Positions 21-20,756 of a stretch of DNA of 20,819 nucleotides are shown one piece after another. The stretch is from a virus. Location of the stretch: IMG/VR virus record IMGVR_UViG_3300034198_006947, positions 1 through 20,819 of that record. One strand, 5' to 3'. The first letter of the stretch is position 1. Each line of letters opens with the position of its first letter. The translations under genes were made by a program, and so were the position numbers. Under the pieces are notes generated by a model. It had not been told where the DNA came from, ran no database searches, and was given only the letters and a program-made list of their open reading frames with translations.

Positions 21-57
21 GCTTACCTGACTATGGTAGCACAGGCAGCAGGGTCTG

Positions 58-438
58 TCAAGCCCCCTCGGCAGGTTCCTCTGGTTTTGATTTGATGACA
101 ATATTTTCGTATTCAAATTCTCCCTCTGGAGAAATAACATAACAATGCCAGTAGTAGTCACTATCTGGTAGGTAATCAACTGCTGGGAACCATTCAGTGG
201 CATTCATTACCGCAGAATCAGTAGTCTCACATTTTACAATACGTTCGTTTGTATTTTTTATTTTCAGTAAAATATCTTCTGGTAAAAATTCTTCATAGTA
301 TGATAGAATTTCTTGTTTTTTGTCAGCATCAAACGATGAATACAATTCATTATAAAAATATATTAAAGCACAATTATTGCGTTCGGCATAATCAAATAGT
401 ATATCATAAACACTATAAGAATCGTAAATTTCTATCAT
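58..438 (-). CDS. Small acidic protein of unknown function (126 aa)
   Basis: I do not recognise this protein. It is acidic and rich in Glu, Asp and Tyr, with a probably helical first half (YDILFDYAERNN, DADKKQEILSYYEEF) and a beta-like second half (DYYWHCYVISPEGEFEYENI). It has no signal peptide, membrane segment or catalytic motif. The start overlaps the stop of the chaperone-type gene (ATGA), and AGGAG at 446-450 lies 7 nt upstream, the best Shine-Dalgarno in the window with that of the 515-residue collar gene. This supports a real, coupled gene. Its ending (EEPAEGA) resembles that of its neighbour (ASEGAEQ), which may be chance. From position it may be a second assembly accessory factor or a minor virion protein; this is a guess from context only. 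Confidence 0.65.
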   Translation of the reverse strand: MIEIYDSYSVYDILFDYAERNNCALIYFYNELYSSFDADKKQEILSYYEEFLPEDILLKIKNTNERIVKCETTDSAVMNATEWFPAVDYLPDSDYYWHCYVISPEGEFEYENIVIKSKPEEPAEGA

Positions 439-1343
439 TGCTCTGCTCCTTCTGACGCAGGAAGGACTCCAATTTTACCTTCCTCGATCAAACTAATAAG
501 TTGATCTAATTTACCAGAATTTGATACTCTTTCGTCAAACATAGAATCAAACTCATTCCTATTTGCTGTTGCCTTCATAGTTTGCATAAAGCTCTCAAAA
601 TACCATTGTTCAGTAACTTCTTTAACCATTAGGTATCTAACCATCTTTTCTTTAAATGTTGTCAAATAATGAGCAGCAAGAGGTAAAAATTGGTCTGGTG
701 TTTCTAGATACTCAACTCCTGGATTATTTTGTACAAATAACTTGGTGTACATGTTGGGATTGATTGGAAATTTAATCTCTTCTGGTATCATAGATGAGAC
801 ACTTTCTGGCAAATCTCGTAAAAAATTACGATATTTTTTCCACATTTCTTTGGTGTCATCATCAATAGTTGCGTCAGAAGCAAAGATCCAATCAGTTTCG
901 GATAGAAGAAAATTTCTGGCCAATCTAATTGTCAACCAGTTTACGTTAGAAGTTTCGGCATAAACATTTGCCAACTCATTCTGGAATTCTTCATTTTCAA
1001 TGGAATCTACTAAGAAAAAAGTATCCTTCAGAAAATTAAAAAGTTTACTAGCTTCATCATTATCCATCTTCTCCATTTCATAATCACGCCACTCATACTC
1101 ATTAGTTTGAAAATTTTTAACAAATTTTCTTCTTTGAGCATGATAGGTATTATTGTCATACCAAGTGAAAACAATTAATTTATCCTTGTCAGTATCCCAC
1201 AAAGGATACAGCATAGAAACTACATCACTTTTCCAAAAATTTTCAGGAATGTTTTTGTAAATTCCTTTGTAAAAAATTTGTTTTTGAACTACATTAAATT
1301 GTAGTATTAAATTTGGTAAATTGGAATTAACTACTATTCCCAT
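435..1343 (-). CDS. Putative tail fibre assembly chaperone-type protein (302 aa)
   Basis: The central segment, residues about 136-180, carries LARNFLLSETDW followed by MWKKYRNFLRDLPE. This matches the hallmark of phage tail assembly chaperone proteins (RN.LL..TDW ... W..YR..LRD.P, pfam Phage_tail_APC). In phages such proteins are commonly encoded directly after a fibre or adhesin gene and assist its folding or assembly, which fits the position here after three tip-like genes. The protein is longer than typical members, with an N-terminal part of about 130 residues (beta-rich, aromatic) and a C-terminal part of about 120 residues (charged, helical-looking) that I do not recognise. It has no signal peptide or membrane segment. 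A GGA lies 9 nt before the ATG, a weak ribosome binding site. The stop overlaps the next start (ATGA). The family call is fairly firm; the client protein is inferred. Confidence 0.65.
   Translation of the reverse strand: MGIVVNSNLPNLILQFNVVQKQIFYKGIYKNIPENFWKSDVVSMLYPLWDTDKDKLIVFTWYDNNTYHAQRRKFVKNFQTNEYEWRDYEMEKMDNDEASKLFNFLKDTFFLVDSIENEEFQNELANVYAETSNVNWLTIRLARNFLLSETDWIFASDATIDDDTKEMWKKYRNFLRDLPESVSSMIPEEIKFPINPNMYTKLFVQNNPGVEYLETPDQFLPLAAHYLTTFKEKMVRYLMVKEVTEQWYFESFMQTMKATANRNEFDSMFDERVSNSGKLDQLISLIEEGKIGVLPASEGAEQ
446..450 (-). promoter_or_regulatory. Ribosome binding site AGGAG of the 126-aa gene
   Basis: AGGAG lies 7 nt before the ATG at 436-438, within the final codons of the chaperone-type gene. 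It supports independent or re-initiating translation of the small downstream gene. Confidence 0.65.
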
Positions 1344-1374: not shown

Positions 1375-1381
1375 TATTTAG
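1375..1381 (-). promoter_or_regulatory. Possible internal late promoter CTAAATA
   Basis: On the minus strand CTAAATA overlaps the TAA stop of the 1261-residue gene, 31 nt before the start of the chaperone-type gene. The spacing resembles that of the TATAAATA promoter at the right end. The motif is like the late core but imperfect, and the region is A+T-rich, so chance is possible. It falls in the longest internal gap of the cluster (34 nt). Confidence 0.35.
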
Positions 1382-4300
1382 AATGCTTTTATTAAATGTT
1401 TAACCAAAACATATGGTTCCAACAACGGCACATCAACATCTGGACTAATTGAAGGAACAGGAACTAATGGCGTTGCTGAAGTTAAAGCAAAACTAACATC
1501 ATTAGATGCCATACCTGTAGTGTAAGTAGAGTTAGTGGGTCCAGCAACTTCATAAGTTAATTCATCAGCACTGGTGCTAATTCTTCCAGGTGTAGAAATG
1601 AATTGAAGTTCAGTAACTACTTTATTTTCAAAAATAAAATCACAAATACCATATTGATCTGTATCTCCAGCATTATCATTGGCACCAGAAGCAGCATTTC
1701 GATTTTGAACAATTTTAAATCGAACATTTGTGGTTTGTACAGTTGATGGTAAATCTATGCTATAGGTATACCATTGAGTATTTCCACTTGTTCCATCATA
1801 ATTCGTAGCAATATCCGTAAGCGATGGAATCGGAACAAGTGGTCCCAAATATTGAGATTGTGGAAAATTATTAGTGCTATCAGTACTATAAAATAGTTGT
1901 AGTTCTTCGCCACCACTTTCGGGTAAATTTCCTCCATTGATTCCATTTCCTCTTGCTACTTTAACACTAAACCTTTTCACATTGGTACAATCTTGTTCTG
2001 CTAATACAATAAAACGCACCAAATCAGTGCCCGCAAATTTAACATATTTTGTATATGGTGTACTTGGATTAGTAGTAGTATTTAAAGTTAATGATGTTAC
2101 TACTCCAGAAGCATTTATTGTTGCTGTTGCTGTAGTACCAGAACCAGCACCTCCTAAAAATCTAACAGTTGGAGCACTAGTATATCCAGATCCACCAGAA
2201 TTTAATGTAACTGAAGATACTTTATTACCAGAAACTACTGCAGTTGCTGTGGCAACAGTCGTTGGAGATCCTCCCTCAAAAACTATCGTAGGAACTTGAG
2301 TAGTTGGCAACACAAATCCAGTAGTAGATCCAGTCCCAGCTCCAGAAGAATATATTTCTACTCCATTGCTAGCAGATATAACAATATCACCAATTGTAGT
2401 ATTTGTTGTTCCACCAGCATATCCAGTAATAGTTCTGAATTGAATTCCAACATATCCATTAGAACCATTAGCAGTGCTATACGAACCGCTAGAAACTCCA
2501 GCGCCACCAGATCCAACCGTAGCACTTATAGTTTGTGCTCCAGTAGCAGCAACTTCGTCTCCATCTAAATCTACAGTAGTTACGATAGATTGTCCACCGC
2601 CACCACCACCTGAAGTCCAATAACTTTCATTTGTGGTATAAGATATTACTACTTTACCATTGCCCGTAGAATTATTTCCTGAAGATACCACAGAAAAATA
2701 ATCACTACGGTAACTAGTAAGACCTCTAGCTCCACCATATCCAGCGCCGTGGTCACCATTTCCACCACCACCACCGCCAGAACCGCCAGCAGCAGTAGAT
2801 TGAGCAGCAGTTCCTATGCCGCCACCACCGCCGCCACCGCCACCGCCAGTACAACCATAACTACCACCAGTAGCACCAGCACCAGAAAATAAATTCTCGG
2901 TAGTTCCTTGTGGAGTATCACCAAATTGTGTATTATTTGTTCCATTTGTTCCACATTCGCCTTCGCCAGCAGCGCCGCCACCACCACCGCCGCCAGCACC
3001 CGCAAGAGGAGTAGAACCAACTGTAATTACAGTAGCTGCACCACCGCCGCCGCCATCATTATTTAAGTATCCATCACCACCAAATCCACCATCACCAAAA
3101 GTACCATCGCCACGAGAAGTACCAGATCCAGCTGGTCCTGGATATACATTTAAACTCCAAGTTTTTGTTGCTAATTGACTAGAAACCATTGAAAGTTTCA
3201 CGTATTTACCAGCGCCACCGAGTCCAGTAGTACAACCACCAAAATTATTATCATAACCACCAACAGTAGAAGTCGTGAATCCACCAAAGTTACCACAAGT
3301 AGCACCCGCACCACCGTAAAGTTCAATTGTTACATTAGTAAGACCATACAAAGAATTTGATACTCCAAAAGTTGCGGTGCCATTGCTAGTATATTCAGTT
3401 GGTCCATATGTTGGTGTAGAATTAATAAAACTAAATGTACCAGCAGATCCAGCAGCAGATGGCGCAGTTCCTCCAGCACCACCCAAATTTGTTGGGGTAC
3501 TTGTAGTAGCAGCTTGGTAAATAGGACCATTACCACCGCCATTAGCATCTACTCCAACACTATAAGTAACAAATGTTGCCGATGCTGTTGCTAAACTACC
3601 ACCAATTGTTGCTGTTCCTCTATTTCCAGGAGATCCACCAGCTGCAGATGTTTGTGCTGCTCCGCCGCCGCCCCCGCCACTAGCAACAAAATTACCAATC
3701 GTAGAATTACCAACAACAACCGTGGTTGGTGTACCTGCATTTCCAGCAACATTATATGCTGCCCCAGAACCAGAACCAGCAGCAAATTGTATGTTTATAC
3801 TATCAATATTAGCAGGTATTGCAGTCGAATAATTCCCAGGAGTAGACCAACCAACAGTGGTTGTTGCATATATTGGTGTTCCAGAAGTTGTAACTTGTCT
3901 TCCACCAATCACAGATGACGAAATAAATTTTAAAAATATAGAAGCAGGTGTGAATGTTACCAACTCATATGTTCCAGATCCGATGCCTCCAGATGCCCAA
4001 TAATATCCAGGTTCTTTAATAGTTCCAGTTCCACTATCACCACCACTAAAATTAAAAAGATCATACGATGCTATAGTATTATCAGACAGTGCTTTTTTAA
4101 ACAATGCATGTTTATGAGTATATGATAATCCACCCGCAGGAAAAAATGAATTAAGTTTTCCAGTTGATGCTCGATATCCTCTTAAATAATTATCACCAGT
4201 ATATTTTCTAGAATACGCAGCATCCTTCGAAGCTTCACAATGCAACAAATAATGAGAATGATTCGGTGGACCTTGTAATTTTTTCTCGTCCATCGTAACT

Positions 4301-5163
4301 TTAATTACTTGAGACCCAATAATAGTGGCGCTAATACTGTCTTTAACATTTGTATAACCAGTAGTTGTTACATTACCCAAAGAAAATTGTTGTTTTTGAG
4401 CATTTTTATCAAGATACCATTTCCCATCAATACCATCAACACCAACTTGTAGTGAAGAATTACCAATTGTTGGTGTACCAACTCCATAGACTGGACCATT
4501 ACCAACTATTTTTTTTGCTAATAAATCAGGAACATTGAAAGTTCCCATTTTTGTTTCTGGCCAAATAGAAAAAACATTTGTTGTTGTTACAGGAAGAATA
4601 GAACCATTAAGAAATCTACTAACCTGAGCAGCAGCACCAACACCACCAGATCCAGTTATTGTAATTGATGGCGCAGTTACATATCCAGAACCATATGATT
4701 GAATATCAATTCCAATTATTTTTCCAGCACTAATAATTGGAGTTCCTATTGCTCTAACTGATCCTATCCCAGCTGGCGGTGCAGAGAATGTTACAGTGGT
4801 TGTAGTTGGGTATCCACTTCCTTGTGATGTAATAGTAATACCATTATCAGCAGTTCCGCCATATTCATTTCCAATGATAGAATACAACGCTGGGTAATCT
4901 TTAATATTATATTCGGCGCCATCACAATATAGATATCCTCTATACTGAAATTCTGGGTTTATTTCTGTTATAGCATTTCCAGAAATATTTTCGTATGCGG
5001 TTGTACCGTTTGATGGAATATTAGTTGGTATTTTGGTATGCTCAAAAGAATTTTGATCAGATTTCAATACTTCAATAATAGTACCAATTTCTAAAGTATC
5101 AGATGTTTTATCAGAGTAAAACCCAACACGATTATTTCTGTAACTAGGATTAGTATCTACCAT
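1378..5163 (-). CDS. Large collar/glycine-rich adhesin-like tail protein (1261 aa)
   Basis: This is probably a host-recognition adhesin at a fibre tip. The order is: a collar domain, residues about 25-225 (EIGTIIEV, YRGYLYCDGAEYNIKDYPAL, NEYGG, then after an inserted segment GTFNVPDLLAKK); HxH motifs NHSHYLLHC (about 300) and THKHALF (about 347); a glycine-rich region, about 451-917, with several GGGGGG runs and beta-strand segments such as NVTIELYGGAG, WSLNVYPG and GKVVISYT; a GSGY beta repeat (about 988); a jelly-roll-like domain, about 1038-1180 (KVARGNG, GGEELQLFYSTD, YGICDFIFE), like reelin or sialidase-associated repeats; and the ending YVLVKHLIKAF, shared in pattern with the two genes before it. 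The polyglycine layout recalls T-even gp38 adhesins and the phage glycine-rich domain family. It starts 7 nt after the preceding stop without a clear Shine-Dalgarno, which suggests coupling. Function is inferred from domains. Confidence 0.82.
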   Translation of the reverse strand: MVDTNPSYRNNRVGFYSDKTSDTLEIGTIIEVLKSDQNSFEHTKIPTNIPSNGTTAYENISGNAITEINPEFQYRGYLYCDGAEYNIKDYPALYSIIGNEYGGTADNGITITSQGSGYPTTTTVTFSAPPAGIGSVRAIGTPIISAGKIIGIDIQSYGSGYVTAPSITITGSGGVGAAAQVSRFLNGSILPVTTTNVFSIWPETKMGTFNVPDLLAKKIVGNGPVYGVGTPTIGNSSLQVGVDGIDGKWYLDKNAQKQQFSLGNVTTTGYTNVKDSISATIIGSQVIKVTMDEKKLQGPPNHSHYLLHCEASKDAAYSRKYTGDNYLRGYRASTGKLNSFFPAGGLSYTHKHALFKKALSDNTIASYDLFNFSGGDSGTGTIKEPGYYWASGGIGSGTYELVTFTPASIFLKFISSSVIGGRQVTTSGTPIYATTTVGWSTPGNYSTAIPANIDSINIQFAAGSGSGAAYNVAGNAGTPTTVVVGNSTIGNFVASGGGGGGAAQTSAAGGSPGNRGTATIGGSLATASATFVTYSVGVDANGGGNGPIYQAATTSTPTNLGGAGGTAPSAAGSAGTFSFINSTPTYGPTEYTSNGTATFGVSNSLYGLTNVTIELYGGAGATCGNFGGFTTSTVGGYDNNFGGCTTGLGGAGKYVKLSMVSSQLATKTWSLNVYPGPAGSGTSRGDGTFGDGGFGGDGYLNNDGGGGGAATVITVGSTPLAGAGGGGGGGAAGEGECGTNGTNNTQFGDTPQGTTENLFSGAGATGGSYGCTGGGGGGGGGGIGTAAQSTAAGGSGGGGGGNGDHGAGYGGARGLTSYRSDYFSVVSSGNNSTGNGKVVISYTTNESYWTSGGGGGGQSIVTTVDLDGDEVAATGAQTISATVGSGGAGVSSGSYSTANGSNGYVGIQFRTITGYAGGTTNTTIGDIVISASNGVEIYSSGAGTGSTTGFVLPTTQVPTIVFEGGSPTTVATATAVVSGNKVSSVTLNSGGSGYTSAPTVRFLGGAGSGTTATATINASGVVTSLTLNTTTNPSTPYTKYVKFAGTDLVRFIVLAEQDCTNVKRFSVKVARGNGINGGNLPESGGEELQLFYSTDSTNNFPQSQYLGPLVPIPSLTDIATNYDGTSGNTQWYTYSIDLPSTVQTTNVRFKIVQNRNAASGANDNAGDTDQYGICDFIFENKVVTELQFISTPGRISTSADELTYEVAGPTNSTYTTGMASNDVSFALTSATPLVPVPSISPDVDVPLLEPYVLVKHLIKAF
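2410..3815 (-). repeat. Polyglycine-rich adhesin region within the 1261-aa protein
   Basis: Residues about 451-917 contain repeated Gly-Gly tracts, the longest a run of ten Gly near 2820-2850, separated by short beta-strand segments. Many Gly codons here are GGT and GGC, making local G+C peaks in an A+T-rich gene. The pattern suggests packed polyglycine helices on a beta scaffold, as in T-even gp38 adhesins. It contains four Cys (in ATCGNF, GGCTT, GECGTN and YGCTGG). Confidence 0.7.
4660..4830 (-). repeat. GSGY beta-repeat pair inserted in the collar domain
   Basis: Two related units, GSGYPTTTTVTF and GSGYVTAPSITITG, separated by a spacer of about 30 residues, sit between the NEYGG and FNVPDL parts of the collar domain. 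A third unit (GSGYTSAPTVRFLGG) lies at about 2090-2205 in the same gene. Confidence 0.7.
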
Positions 5164-8132: not shown

Positions 8133-11100
8133 TTAGAGCTCCATTAACCACCAACCACGTAAGTTGGCGGGAATTTCTGATGCTAGTGGGTCACCAGGAG
8201 CATCTGATTGTCCAACAAAGAGTAATCCAAACGAAGCATTCCTAGTTTGAACTATCAATTCTCCACTATCCCAAGCAACTGCCAATGGTGCTTGAGCACC
8301 TGCGTTAATCTTAGAACCAGTAATATCACCTTGAATTGCTGTTGCCACGTTAGAAATTTTCAGTGCTCTAATAACCAAATTAGTGTTAAATTGTAAATTA
8401 CCACTTACCTCAATAAATCTAATGATGTCACCAGTTGTAGCATAATCTGGTAGATAGAGAACTGTGTTAGAACCACTACTACAGTTAATAATATAATTGT
8501 TATTTGGTTGTAGTGGATTTGTCTGAGTTTGACCCAATCCAGTCAAAGATTGAGCAACATATGTCCATCTTCTTCCACCATTAGATGTGAAATATTGTTT
8601 GATACCAAAAGCATCTATCGCACCATCTTGATACATGATGAAATCTCTTGGTCCAGTAGCACCACCAACACCAGCAGAACCAATATTATCAATATGTAAT
8701 AATGGGAGGGAGTTATCTGCTACCGCAAGAACTTTACCTTCTATGTAAAGTTTTTGCCCCATATTAAGAGAACCAGTAGTATTATCAACATCAAATGTTA
8801 ATTTATCAGTACATGTACCATATTCTTGACAAATACTATCATATATGCTTAGTTTACCATAATTATTAATATTTCCATTAAAGTACATCCCCACTCTTCC
8901 TGTGTAAGGATCATTCAACGAACCGTCGCCTGGGTGCCCGTCATCATTAGCAACTACAAAAATTGGAGTATATCCATCACTTCCTAAAATTCTAAGACTT
9001 CCACTTTGAATTTGTAAATCATCATTAATAGTTAACTTACCACCACCAAAGAAATTAGTTAATTGTAATGAAACTGGATCACGATATGATTTTGGCATTC
9101 TAACCGCAAAAGCAGGATCCACTGCTCCAGATTTTGAATCTGGATAGAAGAATTCATTATCAATTCTAATTAAATAAGCATTATCTAATTTTTCAGCAAC
9201 CAAATCTCCATTTACTAATTTAATTCGAATTTTACTGCTGAGAGTGTTTGGTAGTTCAACTGCAGTTCTTCCAGTTGCTGGTACTGCTTCACCCAAAGTA
9301 GTTGTTCTGAAATCTTTGTTAATTTTGACAACAGTTGCTCCAGCAGCAAATGATTGCTTACTAGTAGTCTCTTGAGCTCTACCACCGTTGGGATATGTTT
9401 GAACAGGATAAGTAGCATTATAAATTGTTGGTAAATACCCAATACCTCCCGAAGTATAAGGAGCACTGGTAATTTTAATAATTTCTGCTGGGTTGATCAA
9501 CGCGCCACCACCGCCAACAGCAGTTCCAGTGCTTATAAGAACCAAATCACCAACGCTAAATCCACTAATACTTTGAACTGGAATATCCCAAGTTCCAGTA
9601 TTAACAGATCCAACAATAGTTGTTAAAGGACCATTCTGCTGTCTAGCAAATGGGTCATTTCTATAAACATAAACTGGAGTTGAGGTAGTATGATTTGCTG
9701 GAGTAGTACCAAAAAATCCTCCAATTACAAAGACTGTTGCATATTGACTACCAAAAGTAACGTCACCTGAACATGTATTGATATTTACAGTTTCATAGAG
9801 TTCATTGCGGAATTTTAATGCTCTATCGGTAGTTGTAGAACCATTACCACAACCACCTTGTAGAGTAATACTTCCATAAATTGATAGATTACCGCTATTA
9901 GCAAGCGAAGGACTACCAATAGTAGTATTTCCATTCAACGAATCGACTTCAAATACTGTGAGTGCTGGAGATCCACCATCAGTAATTCTAAATTTCCTAG
10001 AATTTGTAGTAGCACTAGAAGCAATTTTAACAAATTCACCAACAGTGCCAGCACTATTTCTTTGAAGAATAATATAATCACCAACTCCTAATTGACCACC
10101 AAATTCGGATAGTGAAACCAATGCAGTGCCAGTAGTAGCAGTTAGATTATTGGTCACCCATGTAGAATCTAAAGCAATATTAATCTTTCTAACATAGGTT
10201 AAATCGGGATGGTCTGCTCTAGTTGGTGCAAATGTACCAAGTGGTTGTCTTTCAACAATGATATAATATGGAGCAGTACCAGTTCTAACCAATCCTCCAG
10301 TAGGAATTCTAACAATTTCAGGATGTCTACCACCCAACACAACAGTATCAATTAATAAGAAATCTCCTTCTGCATATGTTGGCGCAACATCCAATGGTAG
10401 GTAATAATTATTACCTGTTAGAGCAGGCAAAGAATAGACGGGAATTGATGATTGGAATGCTGCTCCACCCCATGCACCTGCACCAGCAGTGTCAACTTGA
10501 TTAACAAAATAGGTAGCATTCCCAACAGTACCATTTACAATGGTTACCAAATCAACAGGTTTATCGATTGGAGAAGCAGCTTGACCAGTTAGAGCAAGAG
10601 CAGGAGTTCCTAATTGTGCTCTGTTTCCATTAAAATCAAAGGAAGATAAACCACCATTCAAAATAGTGTTACCATTAACACTCAAACTAGCATCAACTGT
10701 AAGAGCATTTCTAACCTTCGTGTTACCACCTTGTCCACCAAAAGTGATAGTAGAAGCATTATTTGCAAGGTTCAGAACTGTTGCTTCGTTGAAAGCATCA
10801 AGTGTAGATCCAGTAGGAACGGTAATCTTGAGTGAAGAACCAAGACCTCTTAGATAGCTAAGCGCAAGATCACCACCAACTCTAGTTAACTTAGAATCAA
10901 ATGATACGAAACTATTTGATTCGTTATTGTTGAACGCGCCGCCAATGTTGACCTTAGAAACATTGGAAGAAGTTACGGCAGTGTTATTACCAATTTTAAT
11001 ATTAGAATTGGTTGATTGACCACCAACCGTGATGTATTGATCGCTTGTTCTGCTTGTGCCAATATTGATAGCAGCAGCATAGTTAGCAAGGTTTAAACCA

Positions 11101-14100
11101 GTTGTTGTGATAATACCAGAATTATTAGTGATACTACCGACAAATGTGTTCTGATTAAAGATATTAAAATCGGCAGTTGTAACTGTAGTTGTGATATCAC
11201 CACCGTTAATAGCAAGGTCAGTTTCAACTCTGACACTACCACTAATGGTAGAGTTACCGATTACAGCAAGCGCAACGTTGTAGATTCCAGCATCAGCAGC
11301 ACCATTGAGTTGAGCATTGGTTGTATTAATACCAACTCTACCACCATTAGTAGTAGAAATTCTGAACACAGAACCATTTGTTGGGTTAGCACTATCGCCA
11401 CCAACTAACAACGCATTGTCTTGATTGATGAATGTTCTAGCAGCAAGGGTTGGGTTGGCAATGAAATTATTTGGTGAAGTTGCTAGAATCTTACCACTGA
11501 TGAATGTTGTTCCAACAACATCAAAGTTAGCTCTTGGATCAGTAGCGCCACTCTCAACAAATCCATTCTTATAAGCAGTGTGTGCCGCACGAGCAACAGT
11601 GTTAATACCAACTTTGTAATTACCAATGTCATCAGTGTTGGTTCTGATTGATTCAGCACCAATAACACCAACTTCCTTCCAAGCAACGTTAGAAACGGAA
11701 ATAATTACAGTTGGTTCTGTGGCAGCAGAGATGTCATAGTTACCAACATCAACATAAGTATTAAGTTGAATATCAACATAAGTATTAGTATCACTGAATG
11801 TAGCACCAACAATACTCCAAGCACCCAGAACTTTGGAAGTTAACCCACCGTTAGCAGAGTTTTGGAATGTTCCAGTGATCTTAACTTGATAGTTAGCAGA
11901 CTTGATACCTACTTGACTATTAGTATAGCGAGAAGTTGTACTTGGAATAATTGCCCAGGTAATTCTAATTGTGTTATTACCAGCTCCAAATCCTTGAATT
12001 TGATACTTATAAGCAGGAGTAACTGTCTCAAAGTTGTTGCCATATACCCAAGCAATAGAACCAGTTAATCCAACTTGCTCACCTTTTAGGAGAATATCGC
12101 CAGTCTTGAGAGCATACTTAGATCCAAAACCAACAACTTGCGTAGTGCTACCCGAAAGAGCACCAAATACATTGAGTTGATCTGGAGTTACTTGATTTAG
12201 AGCAGTGCGAATCGAATAATCCTGTAATCCTCTAGTATTGAAGTCAACAACAGCAACTTGTAGTCTGTTATCGGTTAAGATAATATCACCAGTTGGTCTT
12301 GTTGTTGCTGGATTAATTCTTAAAGATGAGTCATCATTCGTGGCAATGTTTGCCTTAATCTGAATAGCAGGTGGAGCATCAAATCCAGTTGTAGGAACAA
12401 TAGTGCCTACATCCATGTAGATTGGTGAAGTCCACTGGTTTGCTCCTTTATTGAGTGGAGCAAGGAAGGAAACAACATCATTAAATGTAACAGGACCATC
12501 AAAGGTTGTTACGAAGTTACCAATCGAATCACCTTCATCAGAAGATTCAACAAGCAACGCAGACTCTAGGAATGTTTCTTCACCAGTAATAGCGTTGATC
12601 TTACGGTTACCAATGTATAGGTCACCGTTAGAGTTTAGACCAGTGTAGAATACAATACCACCGTTCTCTCTCTTTGCCTGAGCATAGAAGTCTTGAACAT
12701 CTGATAGCACAACTTCTTGACGAGCAGGGAAACCAGTTGAGTAGTTACCAGGACCGAAACCAAGATATTCAAACGTGTGGTTACCAGAACGAGCAATCGA
12801 TGGTCTACGAAGTTCTACATATAGTTTTCTTTCTGTAGGATATAGAGAATCACCACAGATAGGAATTTTTCTAGCTTCAGAACCAGCAGAAGCACCACCA
12901 GATTGAGCTTGGATAGCATTATTACCAGTGAATGTATATTTTTTGGAACCTGAATCCATTACAAGATCAAGTACACCTTCTCTTGTTACACTGGACTTGG
13001 ATTCATTAACAGTAACTAGACCATGAATATAGTTGTCAGCAGCAGAAACTGTTGCTGGGGGATCGATGGCACTAGCATCAAGTTGCTTATACCATTCTGG
13101 ATCGTTCTTGTAGAACTCAGGATACAATCTAGATACTGGTTGAGAGAACTTGAAGTTTCTGAAGTTTTCGCCAACACCAGCACCAGTTGGGAATGGACGA
13201 ATGTCGCCACGTAGGCAAGTTAGGTAGTAAATACCATCTTGCTGACCATAGATTCTTCTGCGGATTTCATCAATATCATAGATGTAGAAGGTGTTACCAA
13301 AATCTTCAGTATCTTTAACCGAAGCAATGGTGTAGTTACCATTTTCTGCCTGGAAAGTATCACCAGGAGTCATGGTGTAAACGTTAGCACCTTCAATTAC
13401 ATAGAGGTAATTATCTAGATCAGAACGACCTTCATTTGGAGGAGCAATTAAAGTAGAAGTTACAGAACCTTGGGTAAAGACAGTTGGAATATTAGCATCA
13501 TAATTTAATGATGATGTAACTGTGATGTCCTTGAGAATCATGTAATTTTGATTCTCATAATTAAAGTAGGCATGAACTCTTGCTGTGCCTTTAGAATTAC
13601 CATTCCAAGTAACAATATTTGATGTATTGCCAGCAGGTAAGTTAGCGATATTAGCAACAAATGTACCAGTTCCTCCCTGGGGAGCATCAATCTTAACAGT
13701 GGTGAATAGTTTTTCCTTGTATCCTTGCTCTTCAATGCCAACGTTAAATACGGTTAACTCTAGATACTCAGTGTTATTAGTGAAAACTTTTCTCGCAGAT
13801 TGAACATAGAAAGTTACCTTAGAATCAGTAGTAATTCTGGTTCTATACTTAGGTGTTTGGTCAATCTCGGATAGAGTTTCTGGATTATATGGATCATATA
13901 AACTGCTGAAGTTTGGTCCATGATCACTAGTGGTATAACCCAAATATTCTCTATTTGGTGACTTACCAGATACAGCAGCTCCTTGGTTAGGAATACTCAA
14001 TTCAGCAATATTAGCGCCGCTACCAGTTGGTTTTACAAGAATCTTCTGTGGTAGAAGTCTTCTGGTTTGGTCATTCCTTGACTTAATAACAAATCCACGC

Positions 14101-17100
14101 AATGGATCACGAACTGACTTGAGATAGTTAGGAATAACATAACGTATTCTATAAACACGATCTTCTTTTGATCTAGTATCTTCAATTCTTTCAAACCATG
14201 TATCTGGTGTCTTATCCTTGGTAGCAAAATCATCTCTTCTGATTCTTTCCAAGATAGTGTTAGGTCTGGTAGTATCTGTAGCAATATACCATGTTCCACC
14301 AGCATAGTTACCACTTTCTGCAGCAGTTAGCAGTCTTGGGTATCCTTCAGTTAGAGTTGTGGTTACAGAAGGAGAAGCAGCAGCAAGTGCTAGTTTAGTT
14401 GCCGTTACAACGCCAAGTTGTTGTTGAACTACTGTTCCAAGTTGTGCTCTTAGAACAATAACTTGGGTTCCTTCAATGGAAACAATTTTAACAACTTCAG
14501 TGAGAGCATTTTGATTATTTGTTATTCTTACATAATCACCAGCAGCAAAATTGGTTACAGAAGTAAAGTCAAGGATTGTTTCAACAAGATCTACAGTTTC
14601 AGTAAGAGTTGTAGTTGTAGCAGTTGAACCATAATTCCACTTAATTACAGTAGCGCCAACTGAGTGATTTACTGGATAAGTACCAAGTGATGCTCTGGTA
14701 ACAACTAGGTGATCAGCACCAGTGGTAGAAATACCAGTGACAAAGAAGAATTCTTGATCAACTTTAACGTAGTTGCCAATAGCAAATACCGTTTTGTCGT
14801 TGACATACAATCTAGTCTCATCATAAGATAGTGCTGCGCCTGCTTCGGGAGCAAATCTAAGTGGTGATCTCTTTTTGCTTGAGAATGTATAGAATGATCC
14901 ACCAAAAGCAGGGAATGTAAGTGGAGTAGCACCAGCAATAGCTTCAGTTAATGTATCATAAACTTCAAACTGACAATTTACAGGAAGATTTGATTTGTTA
15001 ACGTAGCGAGCATAGTATTCTCTAGCAGAAGAAATGCCAGTTGGTAGCGAACCATTGCCAATTGGTTTGAAGAAGATTGCTTGGAACTTCTGGTTATCAT
15101 CACGATTCCAAGAAGAATTTGGTTTATCAAATACGTGTGGTTCTTCTGAAACTAAAGTAGTTCCATCTCCTCTTCTAGTTGTGTACTGGTTTAGATCATA
15201 CTTAACATCAAGAACATACTGGTAAACATCAATTACAACATTCTCATCAATGCTTTGAGTTTCAGATGAATAGATGTAAATACCAGTTGCTGCATTTTCT
15301 GCACTACTAGCAAGCATGAGGTTCTGGAAAGAACCAGCAGTTGTGCCATCAAATCTTGTAGTATTTGAATAATCATATGGATCAGTCTTTCTACCAGAAG
15401 CAATTACATAATAAACAGTATTTGTATCAAAACCTTTTGGAAGTCTGATGAGGCGCTTATCTACATCAACACCATCCTTAGCACGAGGAACAAGTCTTAC
15501 AGGTGTTCCAGTTTCTAAGTGGTGAGGATCTGTAGGAGCAGCACCAGCAGAAGTATCAGTTAGAGTGAATAGGGTTGCTCTCTTGGCAAAAGATCCAGTG
15601 TTAAGATTAGAAATCTTCTTAGCAACACTACCGATACCATTGTTGATAACGGTATTGAATGTGGTGAAGAATGTATTGATATTCTCAACTACCGATGAAC
15701 ACTCACCATTGGTAGCAGTATAATTATAATCTTGAATTACACTGTTGTCAACCGTTGGTTCAACAGCATTTGCCCAAACGCCTTCTTCGAGTTGGAAGAA
15801 GAATTTAACTGGTGTATTGGTTCCAAGTGAACCAGAAGCATTTACAGTTACACCAGAATCAAACCTAGAACCCTTTGAACCTAATTTTATTTGATTTACA
15901 GCTAGACCATTGTTACCATCACCAATCTCCATGATGTAGGCAGTAGAAGGAATAGAAGTGGTGTAGTTACTTGCCTTAGGAACAACTCTACCGTTTAAAA
16001 TTTCTTCTAGTTCATCGTTATAGTTGGTTGCCAATACATTCAATGAACCAGTGTTAGCAGGAATTGTAGTTACGCTACGAACCTTCATGCCAACAACAAG
16101 ACCAGATGTGCTAGGAACTGTAATAATTGGTGAGTTACCAGTAGCGGTGCCATTAACATAGGTATTGTGATTTCTCATTGAAGAGATCGCTAGATTTCTT
16201 ACATAATCGTAAGCATCTAGAGTTTCAACTCTTTCTCTTTCAATGTAATCAAGTTGGTTAGCAACAAAGGAAATAGCACCAGCAGTTACACTACCAGAAG
16301 TTTGAGTAACGGTAATTGTGTTGCTTCCACCAATCGAAAGAATAGTTGGGTTAACACCAAATGCTCCAACACCAGAAGTTTTAGTTAGTGCCATACCAAC
16401 TAATAGATTGGCGGTACTTGTTAATCCTGTGATAACACCGTTTGAAGCAAGGGTGCCAGATAGTGTCTGTTGACCAGTGCCAGTGAAGTAAGATTCAGCA
16501 GCATTGATGATATTTTCGTTACCACCTAAACGTAGGTCAGCAGTGATAGCTTCAACAATGTATCCGATGTCTCTGCGGCACTTACTTGACTCACTAACAG
16601 TGCTCCAAGGACCAGGATTAGATGCTGGAAGAGCAAGAATACTGGAGGTGGTTAACGAAGTTGTGAGAATAGCAAACAGAGTATCAATAGTATTTCTTAC
16701 GTTAGCACAATCCCAGTCTCCATTATCAATAGGGGGAAGAGATGAAAGTGTACCAGCATTTAGAGTATTAATGATGGTGGCAAAGAGAGAATCAACTGTT
16801 GATTGAACATCAACACAAGATGCTGCGTTGCCAGATGTGCTAACAGCAATATTACCGCCAGGTCCACCAGCGGTAGCAGGACCAGCAGACAATAATAAAT
16901 TTTTGGCGTATAGTTGGTTAGTAACTGCTTTCTTGACCATTGTTCTTGCTGCGTCAAAAGCAATTACAGATTGAACAATTTCCCCATTGAGTGAACCAGA
17001 TGAAGTTGAACCATTGTTACCAAAGTATTCACGAATAGCACCAACAGTAAATTCGTTACCACCCCAGTAAAGGTCTTGAGCAATAGAGTCAACAATGTAT

Positions 17101-20100
17101 CCAATATCACGCATACACTTAAGTTCACCAGCTCCTTCGGATAAACCATTACTCTCTGCTACTAAAGCAGTAATATTTCCCGTAGTAAGTGAACTTGTTA
17201 CAAGTAAAGTAAGACTAGTAACTGCACTTCTAACATCAGCACAAGCAGCAGCATTGTTATTTGCAATGTTTCCACCACCACCGCCATAGTTAGCAGGGCC
17301 AGGAGAAATAGTTAGGTCAGTATAAACTGTTTTAGTACCAGTGCTACCATCTTGCCATGTACCACCAGCAGGTGATGATGTTACAAGACCAACAAGTGCT
17401 GCTAATGTATTTGTAATCGCAGCATTCATAGCATCACGAGCTTTATTGAATGCTGTGTTTGATTGTGATACTTCACCAGCAAGACCATTAGTAATAAGAG
17501 TGTTTCCAGCAGTATTAAAGTACTGTTGTAAGAACTTGCGAGTATACTTATTACCATTTGATGAACTTACACTACCCAAAAGAAGGTCTAGTGATACTGC
17601 ATCAACAAAATAACCGATATCGCGCTTACACTTGTTTAGTAGATCTGCAGGCGCGGGTACTGGAGGAGAAGCAACAACTGTAGCATATGCAGTTTCAATA
17701 ATAATTTGCTTGTTTTTTTGAACTAAACGATATGCATCAAAATAGCGTGAAAGATTTGTAGTAACAGTATCGCCAGGAACTACCCAATTAGTGCCCCAAC
17801 CAGCTTCAGTATACTGAACTGCAATTTCAGCAAATGCTCCATCAATAATCTCTTGTCTGTTAGAAGTAACTAGTTTAGAAGCATCCTTGTAGCGACCAGC
17901 AGGATCATTAGTATTTTCTGGATCAATTGTAACCGTGGAACAATAGAAAGCACCAGTTGCGGTGGTTATTCCTGGAGCAACAGCTACTTGGTACTTAAAT
18001 TGAGTTGGAGTAAATCCAGTTGCTAAAACAACAGTCTTGTAAACATTATACTCATCTTGTGTAGCACCACCAACATTAATTTCCTGACCAATCGTAAGAT
18101 TATGAGCAGAAGAGGTTGTAGCAGTGATTGTTGTTCCACTGGATGTTAGTGATGTAACAGGAACTAAAGATGTATTGCCAAGTAGGTTAGAAATTGCTTT
18201 CTTTGCCCAATCTCTAGCACGGTTGAACGCAAATACCGATTGTGTTACTTCTCCAACTAGACCATCACTAATTGGGTTGCCATCAACATCAAAGTATGCC
18301 TTGGTTGCTTCAATCATATGTGCGTTGCCACCATCATAAAGGTCAGCAGCAAGAGCATCAACAATATAACCTAAATCACGCTTACACTTGTCTGCGCTAG
18401 GTGGAGTAAATGTTGGGAAAGCAACCAACATCTGGTTGTAAGCATAATCAATGATTTCCTGACGGTTTGAGAGAATGAGATTACGAGCATCTCTATAACG
18501 CCCAGATTCAAACGTAATATTAGGATTGACGTATGAAACTGTTTGTAGGTATGGGTATTTCTCTAGAATATAACCAAATGCTTCTGATTGAATGAAAATT
18601 TTGTTTGCATCAATTAAATTAGCAGCATCCTGACGTAGGTTGAATGAAAGAGTGTCAGCAGCAGTATTTGGTGTGCCATCTTCGTTGAAGTCACCAACAC
18701 CCAAATCAGCAGGGCTTAGTGTATCAAGAGCAGCAGACCAAATCTTGAATCCTTGTGGGTAAACTACAGCAGTCTTGGTTGTTGAACCAGTTTCACCCGC
18801 AGTTTGATCAGCAGTGGTGTTTACAAATAGTTTTTCGCACTTATCATCATTGATATAAGTTCTGGCACCTAATCTATAACCATTGATACTAGCAGCAGGA
18901 CGAGATAGGTAGTTATTTGCTTTGTCACCTGTTAGATAAAGTCTATTGCTATTAGTTGATGGTTTTGATAACTGAACGTTAACTGGATAATAATTTGTTT
19001 TAATTGGTTGTGCATCAGAATCAAGAGTCTGTGGAGGAATAATATCAGTGATATATCCACCTTTGTCTTGGTTGAACGCAAATCCTTTAAATCCCTTCGA
19101 GTGCATCGAAGTGTTACCAAAGTTTGAGTTCGAGTTGGTGATTGACATGTCACCACCACTCTCTAGCAAGAAGTGATCAGCAAAACCAACCGCGAAGATA
19201 GAAACGTTCTGAATGAAGGAGTCATCCGAAGCACGAACGTGGAAGTTTCTCCAATCATCCTTCCAATATGCATCACCCTTGATGTGATAAGGAGTGGTAG
19301 CAAACGCATCAGTTAATGGTGCTTGGTTCCAAGTATTACTAAACTCATCGTAGCGAATGAACGCACGGTCATCTTTCTGCAGCGAAACACCAGTATACTG
19401 GGCGATAACCATTGATTTGAAACCAGTTGCCTTACGACCATCTGCCCAGATACCGCAAATACCCCAAGTTGAACGAATCGAAACGTTGAAGACGTATGGA
19501 GATGCTGATTCTACGCTATCTACTTCTGCCTGTACGGTAGCATTAGCGTTTGGAGTGATAGATGCTCCAGGAATCAATCCAACGGCATTAGCGGTCGTTA
19601 CAACGCGATACTTGAATTCCTTAGGATTGGTTGGACTGATGCTGATAACTTGGAATACACCTTCCAAATTAGCATTCAAACCAGTGTTGGCAATAGCAAC
19701 ATACTGACCAGGGAAGAATCCATGGTTGATTTTTGTTCTTACAGTAACATCAAGTAATCCAGATGATGGTTCAGTTACAACCAATTCATCTAGTTGGATG
19801 GTGTCAGCAAGAGGTCCAACAATTCTGTTTTCTTGGATTCTATAGTCAAATTCACGAGAAATCGTGCTTAGACGCTCCCAATAAGTATCTTCTAGGTCTG
19901 GACGCTTATTGGTTGATCCAGCAATTGCTTTATAAGCTTCACCGCCAAATACAACATTAGTATTAGTAACATATGCTTGTGATGATACCCAAGTATCTTG
20001 AATTCTACCAGATTCAGCAGTATAAACGTCATCAATAGCAGTTTGATACTTACTGAATACTTTAGAAATCTTCCTGTAAAGTAAACTTAGATCTTCTTTG

Positions 20101-20756
20101 TCTGCAAAGACAAAGTTGGTCATTTTGTGGTGTGAAAACAGAGGAATTGACTTCTGTGTTGAACCAGGCTGAGTATAAACTTGCCCATTCAAAGGACCAC
20201 TTTCTGGGTTACCATCAAGAATAGTAAACTGCCAGAAATAGCAACCACCAGTTACGTTGAAAAGAGCACAACGGGGAACATCTTTATCGGCTGGATCAGG
20301 TAGATAAAGAGCACGAATTTGAGTTCTACGAAGATCTGTTCCTACAAGTGAAGTTCCACGAGGGATTGTTGCGCCACCATCACGACCATTGAAACGATAA
20401 AGAATGTTATTTGGGTTACCTAGGTCAAAAATAGCAGGATCATCCCATGTATCAGTAACCGAGTCGTAGTTAAATACAGGAACGTTTGCTGTGTCAAGAT
20501 CACCAGGGCGGTTATCAATATAGTGCGTACCAGGCGCCAGCATGATAGTGAACTGGTCAAACCTATCATTATCAACACCAGGAACATAAGAGTAGCGGGC
20601 TACTTCTAGGAATGCTCTTTGAATAGAAACAAAAGGTCTTAATTGACTATTACCTCTGTTGTCTAATGCGTCACTAGCGTTAAAATCATCAGGCGAAACA
20701 TAGATGTACTTACCAGTTTTGCTTGATAGTAAATTATCTAACCTTGTTAATGGCAT
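8133..20756 (-). CDS. Giant virion structural protein, fibre-like (4207 aa)
   Basis: This single uninterrupted frame encodes a very large structural protein of the kind seen in T4-like cyanophages, probably a long tail-fibre or baseplate-attached component on the virion surface. The N-terminus (residues about 1-85, MPLTRLDNLLSSKTG then YVSPDDFNASDA, PFVSIQRAF, LAPGTHYIDNRPGD) resembles the conserved N-terminus of that family and looks like the start of a beta-helix. Residues about 750-1430 hold four diverged repeats centred on C-(K/M/R)-RD-(I/L)-GY. Residues about 1985-2125 and 3455-3815 carry repeated GDY/GTY-type beta modules. The region from about 2900 to 3380 is rich in Ser, Thr, Asn and Gly, as in fibre shafts. 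The C-terminus ends PANLRGWWLMEL. The start is fixed: an in-frame TGA lies at 20760-20762, and the next Met is about 70 residues in. No catalytic motif was recognised. It heads the gene cluster, directly behind a late promoter. The exact virion location is inferred. Confidence 0.85.
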   Translation of the reverse strand: MPLTRLDNLLSSKTGKYIYVSPDDFNASDALDNRGNSQLRPFVSIQRAFLEVARYSYVPGVDNDRFDQFTIMLAPGTHYIDNRPGDLDTANVPVFNYDSVTDTWDDPAIFDLGNPNNILYRFNGRDGGATIPRGTSLVGTDLRRTQIRALYLPDPADKDVPRCALFNVTGGCYFWQFTILDGNPESGPLNGQVYTQPGSTQKSIPLFSHHKMTNFVFADKEDLSLLYRKISKVFSKYQTAIDDVYTAESGRIQDTWVSSQAYVTNTNVVFGGEAYKAIAGSTNKRPDLEDTYWERLSTISREFDYRIQENRIVGPLADTIQLDELVVTEPSSGLLDVTVRTKINHGFFPGQYVAIANTGLNANLEGVFQVISISPTNPKEFKYRVVTTANAVGLIPGASITPNANATVQAEVDSVESASPYVFNVSIRSTWGICGIWADGRKATGFKSMVIAQYTGVSLQKDDRAFIRYDEFSNTWNQAPLTDAFATTPYHIKGDAYWKDDWRNFHVRASDDSFIQNVSIFAVGFADHFLLESGGDMSITNSNSNFGNTSMHSKGFKGFAFNQDKGGYITDIIPPQTLDSDAQPIKTNYYPVNVQLSKPSTNSNRLYLTGDKANNYLSRPAASINGYRLGARTYINDDKCEKLFVNTTADQTAGETGSTTKTAVVYPQGFKIWSAALDTLSPADLGVGDFNEDGTPNTAADTLSFNLRQDAANLIDANKIFIQSEAFGYILEKYPYLQTVSYVNPNITFESGRYRDARNLILSNRQEIIDYAYNQMLVAFPTFTPPSADKCKRDLGYIVDALAADLYDGGNAHMIEATKAYFDVDGNPISDGLVGEVTQSVFAFNRARDWAKKAISNLLGNTSLVPVTSLTSSGTTITATTSSAHNLTIGQEINVGGATQDEYNVYKTVVLATGFTPTQFKYQVAVAPGITTATGAFYCSTVTIDPENTNDPAGRYKDASKLVTSNRQEIIDGAFAEIAVQYTEAGWGTNWVVPGDTVTTNLSRYFDAYRLVQKNKQIIIETAYATVVASPPVPAPADLLNKCKRDIGYFVDAVSLDLLLGSVSSSNGNKYTRKFLQQYFNTAGNTLITNGLAGEVSQSNTAFNKARDAMNAAITNTLAALVGLVTSSPAGGTWQDGSTGTKTVYTDLTISPGPANYGGGGGNIANNNAAACADVRSAVTSLTLLVTSSLTTGNITALVAESNGLSEGAGELKCMRDIGYIVDSIAQDLYWGGNEFTVGAIREYFGNNGSTSSGSLNGEIVQSVIAFDAARTMVKKAVTNQLYAKNLLLSAGPATAGGPGGNIAVSTSGNAASCVDVQSTVDSLFATIINTLNAGTLSSLPPIDNGDWDCANVRNTIDTLFAILTTSLTTSSILALPASNPGPWSTVSESSKCRRDIGYIVEAITADLRLGGNENIINAAESYFTGTGQQTLSGTLASNGVITGLTSTANLLVGMALTKTSGVGAFGVNPTILSIGGSNTITVTQTSGSVTAGAISFVANQLDYIERERVETLDAYDYVRNLAISSMRNHNTYVNGTATGNSPIITVPSTSGLVVGMKVRSVTTIPANTGSLNVLATNYNDELEEILNGRVVPKASNYTTSIPSTAYIMEIGDGNNGLAVNQIKLGSKGSRFDSGVTVNASGSLGTNTPVKFFFQLEEGVWANAVEPTVDNSVIQDYNYTATNGECSSVVENINTFFTTFNTVINNGIGSVAKKISNLNTGSFAKRATLFTLTDTSAGAAPTDPHHLETGTPVRLVPRAKDGVDVDKRLIRLPKGFDTNTVYYVIASGRKTDPYDYSNTTRFDGTTAGSFQNLMLASSAENAATGIYIYSSETQSIDENVVIDVYQYVLDVKYDLNQYTTRRGDGTTLVSEEPHVFDKPNSSWNRDDNQKFQAIFFKPIGNGSLPTGISSAREYYARYVNKSNLPVNCQFEVYDTLTEAIAGATPLTFPAFGGSFYTFSSKKRSPLRFAPEAGAALSYDETRLYVNDKTVFAIGNYVKVDQEFFFVTGISTTGADHLVVTRASLGTYPVNHSVGATVIKWNYGSTATTTTLTETVDLVETILDFTSVTNFAAGDYVRITNNQNALTEVVKIVSIEGTQVIVLRAQLGTVVQQQLGVVTATKLALAAASPSVTTTLTEGYPRLLTAAESGNYAGGTWYIATDTTRPNTILERIRRDDFATKDKTPDTWFERIEDTRSKEDRVYRIRYVIPNYLKSVRDPLRGFVIKSRNDQTRRLLPQKILVKPTGSGANIAELSIPNQGAAVSGKSPNREYLGYTTSDHGPNFSSLYDPYNPETLSEIDQTPKYRTRITTDSKVTFYVQSARKVFTNNTEYLELTVFNVGIEEQGYKEKLFTTVKIDAPQGGTGTFVANIANLPAGNTSNIVTWNGNSKGTARVHAYFNYENQNYMILKDITVTSSLNYDANIPTVFTQGSVTSTLIAPPNEGRSDLDNYLYVIEGANVYTMTPGDTFQAENGNYTIASVKDTEDFGNTFYIYDIDEIRRRIYGQQDGIYYLTCLRGDIRPFPTGAGVGENFRNFKFSQPVSRLYPEFYKNDPEWYKQLDASAIDPPATVSAADNYIHGLVTVNESKSSVTREGVLDLVMDSGSKKYTFTGNNAIQAQSGGASAGSEARKIPICGDSLYPTERKLYVELRRPSIARSGNHTFEYLGFGPGNYSTGFPARQEVVLSDVQDFYAQAKRENGGIVFYTGLNSNGDLYIGNRKINAITGEETFLESALLVESSDEGDSIGNFVTTFDGPVTFNDVVSFLAPLNKGANQWTSPIYMDVGTIVPTTGFDAPPAIQIKANIATNDDSSLRINPATTRPTGDIILTDNRLQVAVVDFNTRGLQDYSIRTALNQVTPDQLNVFGALSGSTTQVVGFGSKYALKTGDILLKGEQVGLTGSIAWVYGNNFETVTPAYKYQIQGFGAGNNTIRITWAIIPSTTSRYTNSQVGIKSANYQVKITGTFQNSANGGLTSKVLGAWSIVGATFSDTNTYVDIQLNTYVDVGNYDISAATEPTVIISVSNVAWKEVGVIGAESIRTNTDDIGNYKVGINTVARAAHTAYKNGFVESGATDPRANFDVVGTTFISGKILATSPNNFIANPTLAARTFINQDNALLVGGDSANPTNGSVFRISTTNGGRVGINTTNAQLNGAADAGIYNVALAVIGNSTISGSVRVETDLAINGGDITTTVTTADFNIFNQNTFVGSITNNSGIITTTGLNLANYAAAINIGTSRTSDQYITVGGQSTNSNIKIGNNTAVTSSNVSKVNIGGAFNNNESNSFVSFDSKLTRVGGDLALSYLRGLGSSLKITVPTGSTLDAFNEATVLNLANNASTITFGGQGGNTKVRNALTVDASLSVNGNTILNGGLSSFDFNGNRAQLGTPALALTGQAASPIDKPVDLVTIVNGTVGNATYFVNQVDTAGAGAWGGAAFQSSIPVYSLPALTGNNYYLPLDVAPTYAEGDFLLIDTVVLGGRHPEIVRIPTGGLVRTGTAPYYIIVERQPLGTFAPTRADHPDLTYVRKINIALDSTWVTNNLTATTGTALVSLSEFGGQLGVGDYIILQRNSAGTVGEFVKIASSATTNSRKFRITDGGSPALTVFEVDSLNGNTTIGSPSLANSGNLSIYGSITLQGGCGNGSTTTDRALKFRNELYETVNINTCSGDVTFGSQYATVFVIGGFFGTTPANHTTSTPVYVYRNDPFARQQNGPLTTIVGSVNTGTWDIPVQSISGFSVGDLVLISTGTAVGGGGALINPAEIIKITSAPYTSGGIGYLPTIYNATYPVQTYPNGGRAQETTSKQSFAAGATVVKINKDFRTTTLGEAVPATGRTAVELPNTLSSKIRIKLVNGDLVAEKLDNAYLIRIDNEFFYPDSKSGAVDPAFAVRMPKSYRDPVSLQLTNFFGGGKLTINDDLQIQSGSLRILGSDGYTPIFVVANDDGHPGDGSLNDPYTGRVGMYFNGNINNYGKLSIYDSICQEYGTCTDKLTFDVDNTTGSLNMGQKLYIEGKVLAVADNSLPLLHIDNIGSAGVGGATGPRDFIMYQDGAIDAFGIKQYFTSNGGRRWTYVAQSLTGLGQTQTNPLQPNNNYIINCSSGSNTVLYLPDYATTGDIIRFIEVSGNLQFNTNLVIRALKISNVATAIQGDITGSKINAGAQAPLAVAWDSGELIVQTRNASFGLLFVGQSDAPGDPLASEIPANLRGWWLMEL
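8139..8142 (-). promoter_or_regulatory. Ribosome binding site GGAG deciding the start at 8130
   Basis: GGAG lies 8 nt upstream of the ATG at 8128-8130, inside the last codons of the giant gene. It favours this ATG over the in-frame TTG at 8152-8154 for the 515-residue collar protein. Confidence 0.7.
16480..16584 (-). repeat. Giant-protein repeat copy 4, shortened (CRRDIGYIVEA type)
   Basis: This copy carries CRRDIGYIVEAITADL, GGNENII and ESYFTG, then departs from the pattern: the GEV-Q-S...AF-ARD half is replaced by a Gly/Thr/Ser-rich segment. A degenerate half copy may resume at VETLDAYDYVRNLAISS, about 16190-16240. Confidence 0.65.
16915..17121 (-). repeat. Giant-protein repeat copy 3 (CMRDIGYIVDS type)
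   Basis: This copy carries CMRDIGYIVDSIAQDL, GGN, a YF motif, GEIVQSVIAFDAAR and VKKAVTNQ. It follows a segment with CADVRSAVTSL that itself recurs in variant form (CVDVQSTVDSL, CANVRNTIDTL) between copies 3 and 4. Confidence 0.8.
17410..17633 (-). repeat. Giant-protein repeat copy 2 (CKRDIGYFVDA type)
   Basis: This copy carries CKRDIGYFVDAVSLDLL, a YF motif, GEVSQSNTAFNKARD and AAITN, in the same order as copy 1. Two NRQEIID-like segments (SNRQEIIDGAF and KNKQIIIETAY) precede it. Confidence 0.8.
18190..18390 (-). repeat. Giant-protein repeat copy 1 (CKRDLGYIVDA type)
   Basis: This copy encodes residues about 790-855 of the giant protein. It starts CKRDLGYIVDALAADL, continues GGN, a YF motif and GEVTQSVFAFNRARD, and ends AKKAISN. 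A linked helix-like segment (ARNLILSNRQEIID) precedes it. The three later copies are aligned by the same landmarks. Confidence 0.8.

Follow-up and report, generated by a model that had tools for sequence, protein, structure and literature searches.

Predicted nesting of a glycine-rich domain within another in a tail collar protein related to those of Kyanoviridae

Phages change host largely through altered fibre tips. In known domains of the glycine-rich kind, glycine loops leave the β-sandwich at one end and pack as a lattice. Two described systems are relevant here: the TNF-like/glycine-rich (TG) domain of the receptor kinases ALK and LTK (PDB 9g5i, 7mzy, 7nx0) and the tail fibre gp24 of Pam3 (PDB 7ypx), a chaperone-assembled trimer with a TNF-like and glycine-rich domain at a cyanophage fibre tip (PMC9608196). 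The glycine loops of Pam3 extend from the sandwich as far as the distal tip, and the polar residues at their ends have been proposed as the receptor sites (PMC9608196). Here we describe a tail protein of a marine cyanobacterial virus in which the outer parts of the glycine-rich region, left and right, are very probably the halves of one glycine-rich β-sandwich, with a complete ALK-type domain inserted in its loop. What is new is a known fold nested in a related fold, with a reusable insertion loop; a search of the open literature found no description of this nested arrangement.

The tail protein and its gene neighbourhood

The window, by which we mean the whole stretch of DNA analysed, is one virus record of 20,819 bases. 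On its minus strand, positions 1378..5163 encode a tail collar or short-tail-fibre-like virion protein of 1261 amino acids that bears the nested domains, an assignment drawn from the open reading frame together with domain and family matches (Phage Tail Collar domain at residues 73-107, Pfam Collar, E 4e-11; phrog_30655, virion structural protein, E 4e-270). Its named relatives are Kyanoviridae, and the best-covered annotated relative in cultured phages is gp221 of Synechococcus phage S-WAM2. The N-terminal region (residues 1-420; 3904..5163, minus strand) includes the Tail Collar domain identified with Pfam, the glycine-rich region occupies residues 428-916, and a conserved C-terminal domain (residues 917-1261; 1381..2415, minus strand) proved common to all full-length relatives in the homologue comparison. 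Downstream, the collar gene is adjoined by a tail fibre assembly chaperone gene (435..1343, minus strand; PF16778, E 6.5e-13; phrog_4697, tail assembly chaperone, E 2e-31). It is from the fold and this gene neighbourhood that we infer a receptor-binding tip, the term already used in the first-pass annotation.

Several features lie outside the glycine-rich region. A common repeat of the GSGY..AP.V type is found in the N-terminal and the C-terminal part of the protein (window 4633-4860 and 2074-2316, minus strand; residues ~102-177 and ~950-1030), and profile cross-hits between its copies score about 9-26 bits. Stretches of this sort match baseplate wedge proteins from other cyanophages, and the N-terminal copy is missing from relatives L069, L156, L158 and L159. 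In L092 and L093 an insert of about 280 residues, near residues 121-402, breaks up the collar region; it looks like an alpha/beta hydrolase (VVVAFHGT ... GHSQGG) and has a weak match to Pfam Hydrolase_4 that falls short of the cut-off (E 0.002). About 270 extra residues separate the collar region from the left half in L115, L123, L127, L128, L134 and L135, and likewise in L137, L138, L139, L141, L143 and L144; those of L115 contain repeats such as TAHGFSTGDEVTYS and have no Pfam match. Elsewhere in the window, a single giant open reading frame of 4207 amino acids (8133-20756, minus strand) takes up most of the record; the equivalent place in S-WAM2 is occupied by a large gene (19001-33280), which is annotated as short tail fiber protein.

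Predicted structure of the glycine-rich region

Residues 412-925 were modelled with AlphaFold2 from a 41-sequence alignment (model residue = protein residue minus 411), and the model was subjected to structure comparison with Foldseek and VIA-align. Its pLDDT of 87 and pTM of 0.73 count in favour of nesting, since values this high would be surprising if the three parts of the chain moved independently. The left half (residues 428-584; 3412..3882, minus strand), defined like the right one from AlphaFold2 strands, profile matches and shuffles, passes from opening strands through a short hairpin (TTVVV/GNFVA) to GGGGGG. Its predicted opening strands lie at 429-439, 443-448 and 455-461 and its hairpins at 480-484/490-494 and 518-521/530-534; SINIQFAAGSGSG is located at residues 455-467 and GNFVASGGGGGG at 490-501, and a closing strand is absent. 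The right half is short, at 71 residues (846-916; 2416..2628, minus strand), and comprises WTSGGGGGG (849-857), the hairpin VTTVDLD/TISATV (861-867/878-883) accompanied by a short helix, and the long closing strand YVGIQFRTITGYA (904-916), with GYVGIQF at 903-909; here it is the opening strand that is absent. Between them, the middle domain (residues 585-845; 2629..3411, minus strand), delimited with VIA-align, carries NVTIELYGGAG at 610-620, WSLNVYPG at 669-676 and GKVVISYT at 836-843, and its opening strand (607-616) is preceded by extra strands at 585-591 and 595-600. The first-pass annotation had picked out its motifs from the letters alone and had read the left part as opening without closing and the right part as the reverse; all the motifs that it quoted lie in the 1261-residue frame, and the predicted strands agree with that reading.

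The middle domain aligns with human ALK (9g5i_B) at Z 16.0 and rmsd 2.8 over 182 residues, with the Pam3 fibre at Z 9.9 and with the Bxb1 tail tip at Z 8.6 (VIA-align; model residues 173-435, such ranges giving first and last residues only). Unrelated entries reach Z of only about 6, which places the predicted domain in the TNF-like/glycine-rich (ALK/LTK TG) fold. Because the ALK/LTK, Pam3 and Bxb1 matches span model residues 173-435, the model points to a complete domain that starts nearer residue 585 than 609. The completeness previously claimed for residues ~609-846 therefore stands on the fold match to ALK, whereas the borders shift, the start to ~585 and the end to ~845.

The next group of VIA-align matches, made up of XepA, galectins and invertase sandwiches, has Z of about 4-6 over 72-120 aligned residues, and begins at model residues 20-26 and ends at 498-502, although the targets are mostly single small sandwiches. 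In the XepA match, 88 residues are aligned within target 36..141, with both flanks used for one target domain. That residues from both flanks match single-sandwich targets is as expected of one sandwich built from both flanks, and the model thus suggests that both flanks belong to one domain enclosing the middle, with putative left-right strand pairing. Z values of about 4-6 are modest and indicate a common arrangement, not kinship. With a monomer prediction that is confident across the three parts, the model supports the completeness of the middle domain as well as the joint folding of the two flanks implied by the earlier reading.

The polyglycine sandwich of S16 gp38 is not among the matches listed for the model, which is not evidence of its absence. 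Against Pfam PF21722 (Gly_rich_2), the glycine-rich pieces of the window gave no match, and a relative, L082, scored 18.7 bits against a curated cut-off of 24.3 through its right half (profile positions 33-96). A sequence search of solved structures, with the window protein, profiles and relatives as queries, returned nothing meaningful.

Unsplit, differently loaded and close relatives

Glycine-rich domains of two kinds emerge when the other tail proteins of related cyanophages are read. The first runs opening, long hairpin, short hairpin, closing, as in the middle domain, Syn1_037 and Pam3, whose gp24 sequence was found to have this long-then-short order with a made-up generic glycine-rich query. 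The second runs opening, short hairpin, long hairpin, closing, as do left and right together. This second kind is uninterrupted in S-PM2 p224, S-CAM1 and metagenomic phages, where the two halves make a single domain of about 186 residues; in S-RIM32 gp222, ACG-2014i gp033 and others it holds a different insert between the hairpins, and Syn1_036 has an insert much longer than that of the S-RIM32/ACG-2014i type. In profile comparisons with the S-RIM32/ACG-2014i split type, the left part matches the N-half (P 5e-7) and the right part the C-half (P 1.2e-5), against P of only 0.005 for the middle domain; with the uninterrupted domains, left and right give P 6e-4 and 4e-4, in matching order. Column-shuffled profiles reached the observed score in 0 of 200 trials in each of four tests (either flank against either family), and glycine content therefore does not explain the flank matches. 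When left plus right were compared directly with the middle by profile, the opening and closing ends aligned and the remainder was uninformative. At the sequence level, these comparisons indicate that left and right are halves of one domain whose loop has empty and alternative versions. The proposed insertion of one domain in another is thus upheld by the model and by flank matches to unsplit or alternatively loaded relatives; homologues without the middle domain do occur among different tail proteins within the same virus family, with the halves joined or placed around an unrelated insert.

To the uninterrupted form belongs L275, which was modelled over 1450-2007 from 13 sequences with medium confidence (pLDDT 74, pTM 0.71). 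Its strand series is that of left plus right, with three opening strands, a short hairpin, a long hairpin and a closing strand. The model matches best the TNF-like/glycine-rich domain of the Pam3 fibre, at Z 8.8 over 129 residues; the Bxb1 tail tip comes second (7.8), and various β-sandwiches, C1q/TNF folds among them, score near 5, whereas ALK reaches Z of only 4.4-4.7. At medium confidence, these matches favour placing the host domain, too, in the TNF-like/glycine-rich group. The reversed hairpin order may be a true permutation of strands, but the alignment with Pam3 over 129 residues is in sequence order and would also fit exchanged hairpin lengths with unchanged topology.

Among close homologues, a scan of 2.9 million viral contigs, with identical proteins counted once, recovered the order N-left-middle-right-C in all 105 full-length relatives and no relative among the 105 that was without the middle domain; the close family is uninformative on middle-less homologues because the middle is fixed there. 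S-RSM4_211 also has the nested order, judged by reading its sequence. When S-RSM4-type relatives were scanned with the profiles of the window, the middle was detected in nearly all, the left in some and the right rarely, so nesting in that group rests on the reading of S-RSM4. Separate tblastn searches with left and right against cultured phages returned S-WAM2 only, probably because low-complexity filtering hides glycine runs. In a comparison of the window gene with L001, its closest relative, all parts are under purifying selection (dN/dS 0.10-0.36), and both domains are therefore maintained. In the same comparison, the middle domain (2629-3411, minus strand) has roughly double the dS found elsewhere in the gene (0.32 vs 0.12-0.20), possibly through recombination or glycine-codon effects. 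Frequent recent exchange of the middle within the close family was considered and is not supported: flank and middle identities are largely correlated (r 0.88 across 820 pairs, some of them discordant).

In a tandem arrangement, the left part would be a self-contained, degenerate first domain, and the right part would be either a linker or the beginning of the C-terminal domain. This would accord with the ample strands of the left part, for which eight strands or bridges are predicted, and with a middle that is never missing in close homologues. We consider it unlikely, because the right half has a hairpin and closing strand of its own, at pLDDT mostly 86-97, and matches the C-halves of split domains elsewhere, because the two halves are a single domain in uninterrupted relatives, and because the sandwich matches take residues from both flanks. 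Still less probable is a domain swap in a trimer, in which the right half of one chain would complete the left half of its neighbour: phage fibres are usually trimers, Pam3 gp24 included (PMC9608196), and the monomer prediction is compatible with a swap, yet that prediction is confident, the matches span both flanks, and uninterrupted versions such as S-PM2 p224 have a mere glycine-rich linker between the halves.

Inserts also occur at other places in these domains. L012 carries a DUF5648 module inside its ALK-like middle domain (residues 688-828 of that relative; E 2e-19), L068 and L070 have about 180 extra residues beside the closing strand of the middle domain (residues 843-1021), and L193 and L197 have a module resembling the latter in the host loop before the middle domain (residues about 760-960). 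These modules of ~180 residues share NGIYP/YGIYP...DPY.G.W, have no Pfam match and sit in different loops. Insertion into loops of these glycine-rich domains has therefore happened repeatedly.

A possible socket, and comparison with known systems

With one domain inserted in the loop of another as the preferred reading, a loop at the glycine-lattice end could accommodate an entire additional domain, anchored through two strands rather than one linker. By analogy with the Pam3 loops, the inserted domain would lie at or beside the tip on this two-strand tether, its likely use being a second binding surface held rigidly at the fibre tip, and the neighbouring chaperone may help the nested protein to fold. 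Since relatives show the loop empty or filled with a different module, the host domain could act as a socket and its modules could be exchangeable. More specifically, we put forward, tentatively and as a possibility, that it is a dedicated tail socket of the Kyanoviridae, of the TNF-like/glycine-rich kind with hairpins reversed relative to the ALK type, whose loop either stays empty or carries entire modules (an ALK-type domain or other β modules) as an exchangeable receptor-binding cassette held at two points. Tip location, receptor binding and module exchange as the selective reason are what we infer. Complete modules borne on a loop, with empty and alternative versions in nature, would explain how cyanophage tips become larger or different without redesign of the fibre. 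It is also a case of an ALK-like domain occurring in the tail protein of a virus, and of a domain within a domain of the same general kind.

Compared with the ALK/LTK TG domain, the middle domain is alike in predicted fold (Z 14.6-16 over about 180 residues at 2.7-3.1 Å), sharing the opening strands, two hairpins, glycine lattice and closing strand; it differs in sitting in a phage tail protein, inserted in another domain, and in being without a Pfam match. Pam3 gp24 resembles both the middle domain and the uninterrupted relative of the host domain, and in the window a chaperone gene adjoins the collar gene. However, gp24 has one such domain with none inserted, and its hairpins run long then short, whereas those of the host domain run short then long. 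The N-terminal domain of S-PM2 p224 and S-CAM1 SXBG_00070 show a strand and hairpin series like that of left plus right, but without an insert and at the N-terminus of another tail protein. S-RIM32 gp222, ACG-2014i gp033 and metagenomic relatives resemble the host halves and carry their insert between the short and long hairpins, although that insert is a different β-rich module. S-WAM2 gp221 (50% identical over the alignment) and the more distant and longer S-RSM4_211 (1406 amino acids) are nested like the window protein and differ from it by sequence divergence only.
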